64,000 bases of DNA from Bosea sp. (in: a-proteobacteria). GTDB taxonomy: Bacteria > Pseudomonadota > Alphaproteobacteria > Rhizobiales > Beijerinckiaceae. The translations under genes and the position numbers were made by a program. Shown piece after piece: positions 30,093-45,006 of this stretch. Location of the stretch: the NCBI GenBank assembly GCA_023910605.1, contig JAAVVV010000001.1:1974698-2038697 (forward strand). Reading direction: 5' to 3'. Position 1 is the first letter of the stretch. Each line of letters begins with the position of its first letter. The notes beneath the pieces are model-generated. The model saw nothing but the letters and a program-made list of their open reading frames with translations. It had not been told where the DNA came from and did not search any database.

Positions 30093-30137
30093 TCACTGAT
30101 CGCAAGATCACTGATTGCAATATCACTGATTGCAAGG
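30093..30137. repeat. three tandem 15-bp repeats upstream of the SDR gene
   Basis: Copies at 30093, 30108 and 30123 have the pattern TCACTGATTGCAANN with exact 15-base spacing; the first has C for T at one place. They end 13 bases before the SDR start, and the last copy runs into the GGAAGGAA ribosome site. The period is not a multiple of the helical turn, so this may be a slippage product or a multi-site operator. Confidence 0.8.
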
Positions 30138-42027: not shown

Positions 42028-43323
42028 ATGACCCCTGCCGCACGCATTCAGGCCGCCATCGAAGTCCTGACCGATCTGATCGAGCGCAGGCGCCCCGCGC
42101 CCGATGCGCTGAAGGACTGGGGGCTGAGCCATCGCTTCGCCGGATCGAAGGATCGCGCCGCCATAGCCAGCCTCGTCTATGACGCGCTCCGTCGCCGAGC
42201 CTCGTCGGCCTGGCTGATGGGTGGGGAGACGCCGCGCGCCGTGATGGCAGGGGCGCTGCGCCTCCAGCGCGGCATGGAACCGGCCCAGATCGAGCGTCTG
42301 TTCTCCGGCGAACGCCACGCGCCGGCAGCGCTGGAGGACGCAGAGGCCCGGCGCCTCGCCGCCAGCCTCGATGACGCGCCTGCCCACATCCGCGCCGATG
42401 CGCCCGAATGGATCTGGCCCTCGCTGGAGCAGGCCTTCGGCGAGGCCGCCATCGACGAGGTCGCCGCCTTCGCGATGCGCGCGCCGATCGACATCCGCGT
42501 CAACGATCTCAAGACGACCCGCCGCAAGCTGATGGCGGAGCTGGACCATCTCAGGCCGGAGGAAACCCCATATTCGCTCGACGGCCTGCGCTTTCTTCCC
42601 GGTGATGACGGCCGCGGACCATCCCTCCAGACCGAGAAGGCCTTTCTGGATGGGCTCTTCGAGGTGCAGGACGAGGGCTCGCAACTGGCATCGCGCCTCT
42701 CTCTGGCAAGCGCGTCCGATTTCACCGTCGATCTGTGCGCCGGCGCTGGCGGCAAGACGCTGTCGCTTGCAGCCCTCATGGAAAACCGCGGCCAGATCAT
42801 CGCGACCGAGAATGACAGCCGCCGGCTCGCGCCGCTCTATGAGCGTTTGACGCGCTCAGGCGCGCGCAATGTGCAGGTGCGCTCGCCCAAGCTGCGCAAT
42901 GACGACGCTGTGGCCGATCTCGACGGTCTGGCCGATCTCGTCTTCGTCGATGCCCCTTGCACGGGCTCCGGCACCTGGCGGCGCAACCCGGATGCGAAGT
43001 GGCGGCTCCGGCCTGGCGCGCTGGCCGAGCGCATCAAGGAGCAGGCGATCGTGCTCGACCGTGCCGCGCGCCTTGCCAAGAAGGGCGGGCGCATCGCCTA
43101 CATCACCTGCTCGCTGCTGCCCGAGGAGAATGACGATGCGGTGGAAGCCTTCCTCGCGCGCCATTCAGGTTTTGAGGTGATCGAGCCCGGCGCCGTGGCT
43201 GAGAAGGCCGGGCTTGGGGGCCTGGCCTCATTCACCTCGCCCAAGGGCCACGGCCTGCAACTCACCGCGCTGCGCTGCGGCACGGACGGGTTTTACGTGA
43301 GCCTGCTGCGCCGCGCGGGGTGA
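42028..43323 (+). CDS. rsmB: RsmB/NOP family 16S rRNA cytosine-5 methyltransferase
   Basis: A 431-residue protein with an N-terminal NusB-like helical region and a Rossmann methyltransferase core. The SAM loop is VDLCAGAGGKTLSLAAL near residue 236; the two catalytic Cys are in VDAPCTGSGTWRRNPDAKW near 311 and IAYITCSLLPEENDDA near 353. It probably makes m5C in 16S rRNA. Its last 29 codons are repeated in the tandem duplication that starts at 43235, but the gene itself is complete. Confidence 0.9.
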   Translation: MTPAARIQAAIEVLTDLIERRRPAPDALKDWGLSHRFAGSKDRAAIASLVYDALRRRASSAWLMGGETPRAVMAGALRLQRGMEPAQIERLFSGERHAPAALEDAEARRLAASLDDAPAHIRADAPEWIWPSLEQAFGEAAIDEVAAFAMRAPIDIRVNDLKTTRRKLMAELDHLRPEETPYSLDGLRFLPGDDGRGPSLQTEKAFLDGLFEVQDEGSQLASRLSLASASDFTVDLCAGAGGKTLSLAALMENRGQIIATENDSRRLAPLYERLTRSGARNVQVRSPKLRNDDAVADLDGLADLVFVDAPCTGSGTWRRNPDAKWRLRPGALAERIKEQAIVLDRAARLAKKGGRIAYITCSLLPEENDDAVEAFLARHSGFEVIEPGAVAEKAGLGGLASFTSPKGHGLQLTALRCGTDGFYVSLLRRAG

Positions 43324-43329
43324 GGGGCA

Positions 43330-43404
43330 GTCATCGCGAGCGCAGCGAAGCGATCCAGCCTCGGTGCGCCCATTTCTGGATCGCTTCGCTCCGCTCGCGA
43401 TGAC
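43330..43404. terminator. 29-bp inverted repeat, copy 1, downstream of rsmB
   Basis: The arms 43330-43358 and 43376-43404 match at 28 of 29 bases around a 17-base loop. The arm begins GTCATCGCGAGCGCAGCGAA, a form common in intergenic repeats of Hyphomicrobiales. It starts seven bases after the rsmB stop, so it can act as a two-way terminator between convergent genes. Confidence 0.7.
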
Positions 43405-43661
43405 GCCTTCGCCCTCAAGCCAGCTTCAGCAGAACGTGCTTCTTCTTGCCCATCGAGAGCTTGGCGACGCCGTCGGCATTGAAGTCGGCGGCGGAAAGCG
43501 CAGCGCGCTCGTCAAGCACGGCCGCATCGTTGAGCTTCAGCCCGCCGCTCTTGATCTGGCGGCGCGCCTCGCCCAAGGGCCACGGCCTGCAACTCACCGC
43601 GCTGCGCGGCGGCACGGACGGGTTTTACGTGAGCCTGCTGCGCCGCGCGGGGTGAGGGGCA

Positions 43662-43736
43662 GTCATCGCGAGCGCAGCGAAGCGATCCAGCCTCGGTGCG
43701 CCCATTTCTGGATCGCTTCGCTCCGCTCGCGATGAC
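43662..43736. terminator. 29-bp inverted repeat, copy 2, downstream of tyrS
   Basis: This is the duplicate of the inverted repeat at 43330, exactly 332 bases on. It lies 10 bases from the tyrS stop (43747) and would end tyrS transcription on the minus strand. Before the duplication a single repeat would have served both convergent genes. Confidence 0.7.
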
Positions 43737-43746
43737 GCCTTCGCCC

Positions 43747-45006
43747 TCAAGCCAGCTTCAGCAGAACATGCTTCTTCTTGCCCATCGAGAGCTTGGCGAC
43801 GCCGTCGGCATTGAAGTCGGCGGCGGAAAGCGCAGCGCGCTCGTCAAGCACGGCCGCATCGTTGAGCTTCAGCCCGCCGCTCTTGATCTGGCGGCGCGCC
43901 TCGCCTGTGGAGGGCACGATGCCGGCCTTGACGAAGGCGCTGAGCAGACCAAGCCCGGCGTCGAGTTCGGCCTGGCTCAGTTCCACGCTCGGCAGGTCTG
44001 CGGCGAGCGCGCCTTCCTCGAAGGTCTTTCGGGCCGTCTCGGCGGCTGCCTCGGCCGCATCGCGGCCATGAAGCAGGGCGGTCGCCTCTGTGGCGAGGGC
44101 GATCTTGGCCGCATTGATCTCCGCGCCCTGAAGCGCCGAAAGCCGCGCGATCTCCGCCATCGGCAGAACGGTGAACAGCTTGAGGAAGCGCGAGACATCC
44201 GCATCCTCGCTGTTGCGCCAGAACTGCCAGTAATCATAGGGCGAGAGCATGTCGCGGTTCAGCCACACGGCCCCGGCCGCAGTCTTGCCCATCTTCGCGC
44301 CCGAGGCGGTGGTCAGGAGCGGCGTGGTCACGGCGTAGAGCTGATGCGTGCCCATGCGCCGGCCCAGATCGATGCCGTTGACGATGTTCCCCCACTGGTC
44401 CGAGCCGCCCATCTGCAGGTTGCAGCCGTGGCGACGCGCCAGCACCGTGAAGTCATAGGCCTGAAGGATCATGTAGTTGAACTCGATGAAGCTCATCTCC
44501 TGATCGCGTTCGAGGCGCAGCCTCACCGAATCCATCGAGAGCATCCGGTTGACCGAGAAGTGCCGCCCGACATCGCGCAGCATCTCGATCCAGTTCAGCG
44601 TGGTCAGCCACTCGGCATTGTCGACGGTGATGGCGTCCTTCGTCCCGTCGCCGAAGGTCAGAAAGCGCGAGAAGACGCTGAAGATGCCGTGCTTGTTGGC
44701 CACGATGTCCTCAGGCGTCAGCAACTTGCGCGTCTCATCGCGTCCGGAGGGGTCGCCCACCATCGTCGTGCCGCCGCCCATGAGCGCGATGGCCTTGTTG
44801 CCGGTCTGCTGCAGCCAGTGCAGCGTCATGATCTGCACCAGCGAGCCCACATGCAGCGACGGCGCTGTGCAGTCGAAACCGATATACCCCACCGCCTTGC
44901 CCTGGGCGGCGAGCGCGTCGAGCCCTGCCATGTCGGAGCACTGATGAATGAAGCCGCGCTCCTGAAGGGTTCGCAGGAAATCGGATCGGGGCGTGAAATC
45001 GGTCAT
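43747..45006 (-). CDS. tyrS: tyrosyl-tRNA synthetase
   Basis: A 419-residue class I synthetase that charges tRNA-Tyr. The HIGH-type motif is [15 protein letters not shown] near residue 44, the Tyr pocket includes [13 protein letters not shown] near 197 and the KMSKS equivalent is [13 protein letters not shown] near 236. A C-terminal S4 RNA-binding domain starts near 350. The last 49 codons are also present in the extra duplication unit, but the gene is complete. Confidence 0.96.

Follow-up and report, generated by a model that had tools for sequence, protein, structure and literature searches.

Repetitive extragenic palindromic (REP) sequences are familiar from the RAYT (REP-associated tyrosine transposase, or TnpA-REP) systems and the REPINs, in which, according to the accounts drawn on here, the gene of a small DNA-cutting enzyme is bracketed by its own palindromes while copies without the gene are dispersed. 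GIY-YIG domains are found in homing endonucleases and Penelope-like retroelements, and the tandem-inversion-duplication model describes tandem duplications bounded by microhomology. The REPs of the CGTC type were defined by Di Nocera et al. (2013, PMC3733652) as repeats tagged at one end with CGTC (or TGTC, CCTC), each single repeat forming a stem of 8-9 bp with a loop of 4-5 nt. In that description they apparently lack a dedicated transposase, and their grouped elements are rare except in Neisseriae and Wolbachia; clusters of the GTAG type are reiterated in tandem together with flanking DNA, and the term GIY is absent from the text (PMC3733652). Herein, a duplication in a 64,000-nucleotide stretch of the chromosome of a Bosea sp. 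(assembly GCA_023910605.1, contig JAAVVV010000001.1, positions 1,974,698 to 2,038,697; hereafter the window) is described, which appears to be centred on a dispersed REP-like palindromic element, together with the small GIY-YIG nucleases whose genes this element brackets and which may mobilise it.

The duplicated segment is situated at the convergent ends of rsmB and tyrS, where the following features were delineated (window positions; strand given where one applies).

42028..43323, plus strand: intact gene of an rsmB-family 16S rRNA m5C methyltransferase, above the Pfam PF01189 cut-off and below the NCBIfam equivalog cut-offs
43235..43566: unit copy 1, 332 bp, comprising the rsmB 3' end, a REP-like dimer and an orphan tyrS 3' end
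43235..43241: CCTCGCC at the left boundary, inside rsmB
43330..43404: first copy of the REP-like inverted dimer, 29-nt arms at 43330-43358 and 43376-43404
43415..43566, minus strand: orphan tyrS 3' end, placed by subtracting 332 from the tyrS end at 43747
43567..43898: unit copy 2, 332 bp, comprising an orphan rsmB 3' end, a REP-like dimer and the functional tyrS 3' end
43567..43573: CCTCGCC at the novel joint
43574..43655, plus strand: orphan rsmB 3' end, bearing the derived G at 43608
43662..43736: second copy of the REP-like inverted dimer, arms at 43662-43690 and 43708-43736
43747..45006, minus strand: intact tyrS, tyrosine--tRNA ligase, TIGR00234 above cut-off
43899..43905: CCTCGCC at the right boundary, inside tyrS

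The original prediction, made from the letters of the window, had announced a near-perfect 332-bp tandem duplication with 7-bp CCTCGCC microhomology at its boundaries and a 29-bp inverted repeat in each unit, and all three were recovered: the copies lie head-to-tail at 43235-43898, the heptamer recurs at 43235, 43567 and 43899, and the inverted repeat is present in both copies. Exactly two positions differ between the copies, namely 43276 T versus 43608 G and 43436 G versus 43768 A. Tandem Repeats Finder (TRF) placed this repeat at the top of its four rows for the window (period 332, 2.0 copies, score 1328), and the duplication is far beyond chance. Head-to-tail copies, a microhomology joint and a single-copy state among relatives identify it as a tandem duplication. 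Both genes are whole, as had been foreseen; the accompanying idea that they had gained 3' tails was not borne out, since the rsmB-family (RsmB/F) open reading frame (ORF) terminates within copy 1 and the convergent tyrS within copy 2, and the orphan pair of tails sits between the genes, first the tyrS 3' end and then the rsmB 3' end.

The corresponding locus was compared in seven related draft genomes assembled from metagenomes (L013-L019), drafts of a kind that can collapse repeats, whose RsmB proteins share 78-89% identity with that of the window. In L016, L017 and L018, rsmB and tyrS are adjacent, convergent and single-copy, with alignment ends 55, 40 and 95 nt apart, respectively; the distance between the genes is 295 nt in L019 and 2.8-2.9 kb in L013-L015, and at none of the seven loci did TRF report a repeat with a period of at least 40. 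The palindrome in the intergenic gap is similar in L018, shortened in L016 and lacking in L017. The base matching 43276 is T in all seven relatives (by eye), so that the G at 43608 is derived, while the second difference is silent, falling in a His codon of tyrS where two of the four relatives displayed carry G and two carry A (by eye). With one derived difference, located in the orphan rsmB tail, the duplication is probably real and recent; recency had been anticipated, together with possible strain specificity, and the duplication was indeed not seen in the seven relatives. An artefact of assembly, for which it could be said that the copies are known from assembled sequence and that other arrays in this genome contain exact copy pairs, is very improbable: an assembly error is an unlikely source of a derived change in a tail free to drift, the copies differ by two substitutions, those of other arrays bear variants of their own, and the chromosome forms one contig of 3,759,159 bases.

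The element within each unit is an inverted dimer, the 29-nt arms of which are 97% complementary and 17 nt apart, and the single-stranded DNA of 43326-43408 folds at -40.3 kcal/mol (z -10.1), with none of 200 shuffles folding as well. Its core has 70 matches in the 3.76-Mb source genome (G000), which merge into 12 sites, a tally that omits weaker matches such as a half element at 3163696; seven of the 12 occupy convergent gene gaps as delimited by a crude gene caller. Among 67 genomes of the genus, 62 contain core matches, up to 191 per genome, and a reversed-pattern control gave 0 in each. Like the CGTC REPs (PMC3733652), the element exhibits a GTCAT...ATCCA frame, a CCA tail and inverted head-head dimers, and is located at convergent and downstream gene ends. 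The AT at the stem start and the CCA tail are seen in both arms, which read GTCATCG...GCGATCCAG, and the copies, numerous and dispersed, are for the most part head-head dimers close to the 3' ends of genes. At the tag position the right arm presents GGCGTCATCGCG on the minus strand and the left arm CAGTCATCGCG, that is AGTC. Unlike the CGTC REPs with their 8-9 bp stems, a single arm here forms at most an interrupted 5-bp stem: arm 1 has such an outer stem and arm 2 has none. Because of this difference in the single-arm stem, the element is termed REP-like instead of being assigned to the CGTC REPs.

Arrays containing the same element, defined as tandem repeats called by TRF with a period of at least 40, were found at six of the 12 element sites of the source genome, a seventh site being a displaced piece of one of them. 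Beyond the window these are as follows (coordinates on the G000 chromosome).

3138859-3139933 (L057): array, 299 bp x 3.6 (TRF)
3357794-3360371: array, 364 bp x 7.0 (TRF)
2984915-2986145: array, 263 bp x 4.7 (TRF)
1765730-1767533: complex array (TRF), holding two copies of a GIY-YIG ORF
1770228-1770835: complex array (TRF)
1465782-1466314 (L091): displaced piece of the 364-bp array, 90-96% identical to it, 1.9 Mb away, with the element at each end

As a control, 20 evenly spaced stretches of 20 kb (400 kb) were taken, which hold 338 gaps between neighbouring genes, 54 of them convergent by the crude gene caller, and the only repeat there to reach a period of 40 was an array resembling clustered regularly interspaced short palindromic repeats (CRISPR). 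This spacer-bearing array (L103, G000:C1:260167-260622) has a unit that starts GTGTTCCCCACGCCCGTGGGGATGAACCG. With the CRISPR-like array set aside, six of 12 element sites against none of 338 control gaps (Fisher p 4e-10) or none of the 54 convergent ones (1e-5) constitutes a marked excess, the comparison being one between site classes within part of the genome and no full census. This excess renders improbable the notion of a chance duplication tolerated at unconstrained convergent gene ends with the element as a bystander, in spite of the window unit lying in a convergent gap like seven of the 12 element sites. A doubling of a transcription terminator favoured by selection, to which the position of the element between convergent ends would be congenial, is hardly credible, given the seven copies elsewhere without obvious use and the empty consensus scan for terminators and promoters over 43100-44100, the loop limit of which (8 nt) would miss the 17-nt loop of the element.

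The unit of the 364-bp array is laid out like that of the window, with the tail of a 785-aa ORF, the element and the tail of a convergent kinase-family gene, and both of its ends share the 7-bp CGGCGGC (by eye). Its copy 1 matches copy 5 exactly and copy 2 matches copy 6, the remaining pairs being 4-12 substitutions apart; the identical pairs are a sign of a later exchange of multi-unit blocks. Copies 1 and 3 of the 299-bp array are identical across the 178 nt compared. The displaced piece suggests that array units can move.

Taken together, the explanation we favour with reasonable confidence is that a tandem duplication arose recently around a dispersed palindromic element, and among its possible origins microhomology repair at the hairpin has the best support. 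The hairpin or cruciform of the element would stall replication or be cut, a free end would then pair with a short homology close by, on the sister or the template, so that the interval is repeated once, and RecA-type unequal exchange between the copies would later lengthen the arrays. The short homology at the joint and the palindrome inside the unit are shared with the tandem-inversion-duplication model; unlike that model, the window displays no inverted copy of the 332-bp unit.

Several observations weigh against this interpretation. The duplication is known here from a single strain; the 299-bp unit combines an aminotransferase tail and the element with about 120 bp unmatched in either flank, a segment for which the first 20 matches listed led only to the array itself; and array units vary in size and content, two array sets being wholly intergenic. 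In the genus member G009, with 107 core matches, arrays occur in none of 20 element stretches. Same-strand neighbours within 600 bp were seen (by eye) neither among the 20 of 20 matches listed for G024 nor among the 59 of 136 listed for G048; since the cognate nuclease gene is intact in G048, yet no arrays appear among its listed matches, that gene is insufficient as well. The same inspection by eye found no such neighbours among the matches listed for G006 (59 of 76) and G020 (26 of 179). Another genus member, G011, has arrays in 15 of 20 element stretches, the stretches of G009 and G011 being drawn from the listed matches (100 of 147 in G011). Arrays present in some genomes and absent from others offer a natural comparison for the causes of palindrome instability.

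Because the element-rich G009 has no arrays, the palindrome is insufficient for their formation, and the original prediction that the inverted repeat provoked replication slippage is thus retained in part: the palindrome lies inside the unit, and it is not the whole story. Slippage provoked by the hairpin with no role for a nuclease, the lineages differing in a trait of repair or replication, nevertheless comes close to an even chance, in keeping with the very stable dimer hairpin and the microhomology at the joint. The SbcD C-terminal family PF12320 gave 0 of 25 matches among genus members, so palindromes may persist there, although the same model missed 8 of 14 control genomes. This account requires a further lineage factor for G009, and none was found; loss of SbcD was considered as that factor and set aside, because PF12320 is missing from G009 too and does not separate G000 from it.

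A candidate partner of the element is encoded within one of the complex arrays. A 97-aa GIY-YIG ORF is present there twice in tandem (L090; G000:C1:1765898-1766191 and 1766381-1766674), bracketed by the element of the window. Its protein scores 56.2 bits against PF01541 (cut-off 22.6), its nearest solved structures by sequence are the UPF0213 proteins 1zg2 and 1ywl, and 27 aligned GIY-YIG proteins share the invariant columns G-T-L-Y-x-G, R, E and N, some of which we take to be catalytic. Domain and motif residues place the protein in the GIY-YIG family, and DNA cleavage is its predicted activity. It shares the PF01541 domain and the invariant columns with GIY-YIG homing endonucleases and UPF0213 proteins; unlike the former, no intron or intein was noticed around the nuclease genes looked at.

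Homologues were detected in 58 of 67 genus genomes, from which 30 loci were loaded. In the group of at least 60% identity the core (up to 3 mismatches) lies within 125 nt of the gene in 15 of 15 loci, on both sides in 12, and two of the 15 genes contain an internal stop. A motif-blind bracket test, in which one 250-nt flank is locally aligned with the reverse-complemented second flank and a score of at least 16 counts as a pass, was satisfied by 29 of the 30 loci versus none of 30 control windows placed at a distance of 1 kb (p 1.6e-11); the failing locus, L167 (score 13.0), has a core on one side. Other protein groups of the genus are accompanied by other palindromes, of the forms GTCATGGTCGCC..GGCGACCATCCACG, the GGGAAGGGGATCCA type and GTCATTCCGGGG..AACCCGGAACCCACGAC. 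The clade-2 palindrome had no match in 57 kb of G009, which bears a clade-2 gene, or in 545 kb of G000. The median number of core matches is 76 in genomes with the group of at least 60% identity (n=15) and 11.5 in those without (n=52; p 2e-4); some of the latter are rich in matches, up to 191, and G058, with homologue fragments and 103 matches, is counted among them.

The arrangement resembles that of RAYTs in that the gene of a small enzyme is enclosed by palindromes which are also dispersed without it, and differs in that the enzyme belongs to the GIY-YIG family. A RAYT as the mobiliser is disfavoured: the Y1/HUH family PF01797 had no match in seven of ten genus genomes searched, G011 among them, and none of the three loci checked in the other genomes is bracketed by the element, those of G000 and G008 being free of element cores over about 3.3 kb and that of G020 having one core at up to 4 mismatches.

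The pairing extends beyond the genus. A profile of the 27 GIY-YIG proteins matched 67 of 249 Pseudomonadota genomes at an E value of at most 1e-10, and the blind bracket test was passed by 18 of 30 loci (one being G000 itself) versus 0 of 28 controls. Among 30 loci found through PF01541, all five with a profile score of at least 90 passed (two of which are also in the phylum profile set), as did four of the other 25, and UvrC genes passed in 0 of 20 cases. In a plasmid collection, some records of which are chromosome-sized, 35 records matched and 12 loci were taken; ten passed versus 0 of 12 controls. The clear passes were A. lipoferum, N. aromaticivorans, S. meliloti, Shinella, Rhizobium CIAT894, N. 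gonorrhoeae, Sphingobium and Aeromonas, and the marginal ones Planktothrix (17.5) and Spirosoma (17.0), while the loci of Rhizobium tumorigenes and Photobacterium failed. Protein and palindrome similarity are correlated (Mantel r 0.74 for 59 passing loci and 0.59 for 38 non-redundant ones), with p 5e-4 in each case, which is the floor of 2000 permutations and is uncorrected for shared ancestry of the host genomes. Agreement was partial at the level of nearest neighbours, 13 of 38 proteins having a nearest neighbour whose palindrome is among the closest tenth. Repeat type thus tends to follow protein type, as judged from these comparisons.

The four passing loci among the other 25 (L184, L187, L205 and L208, one with a stop) encode a GIY-YIG group with DGSxYxGH in place of the LYTGI(T/S)T type (by eye), mostly accompanied by another palindrome, which in L184 and L208 has the form TCGACAAGCTCAG / CTGAGCTTGT; they may represent another pairing of palindrome and nuclease. 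Tandem repeats with a period of at least 40 were noted near the GIY-YIG genes of six of the 30 phylum loci (G000, L238, L239, L245, L254 and L260) and near 0 of 20 UvrC loci.

In A. lipoferum (L309), a palindrome-nuclease-palindrome unit resides between sufB and sufC, a gap that is without the unit in A. ramasamyi, A. oryzae and strain B510, the flanks of which are about 95-96% identical to those of A. lipoferum; the ends of the insertion are inexact, as the gap sequence differs among relatives. The repeat at L309:1372-1401 has the stem of a CGTC REP, 8 bp with a 4-nt loop. Counting the query place, the dimer has 17 occurrences spread over five replicons of A. lipoferum; the repeat had 0 matches in 50 kb of the A. 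lipoferum plasmid, and that of S. meliloti 0 in 50 kb of pSymB. The same sufB-sufC gap is occupied in Shinella PSBB067 (L327) by a different palindrome-nuclease unit.

On the strength of this genomic association, the nuclease is proposed as a candidate mobiliser. We advance tentatively, at slightly less than even likelihood, the broader view that single-domain GIY-YIG proteins are the missing mobilisers of CGTC-type REPs, with the palindrome-nuclease-palindrome unit as the autonomous form, the dispersed palindromes as copies without the gene, and cuts by the enzyme seeding duplications. The duplication by itself is ordinary, and its interest resides in a candidate enzyme for the CGTC REPs, which the 2013 survey took to be apparently without a dedicated transposase (PMC3733652). 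If the broader view is correct, it would reveal a REP system built on an enzyme fold wholly different from that of the RAYTs. No report linking GIY-YIG enzymes to REP palindromes was found among the papers listed from the open-access literature, covered by title, beginning of abstract and checked passages. Bracketing, the tracking of palindrome type and the A. lipoferum insertion point to a purifiable candidate enzyme testable on REP DNA.

The most speculative step of the mechanism is that the cutter at the element would be the very GIY-YIG nuclease whose gene the element brackets. That such cuts started the duplications is rather unlikely and is kept as a hypothesis: among the three genomes with element stretches run through TRF, the array-bearing G000 and G011 possess an intact cognate gene inside or between arrays and the array-free G009 has no homologue of at least 60% identity, but G048, with no arrays among its 59 of 136 listed matches, is a likely counter-example, a tandem repeat overlaps the element at only two of the 30 genus GIY-YIG loci (G000 and G011), and the activity is itself a prediction.

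Elsewhere in the window, a tRNA was the sole Rfam match at gathering scores, and a 15-bp tandem repeat of 2.9 copies is located at 30093-30136.

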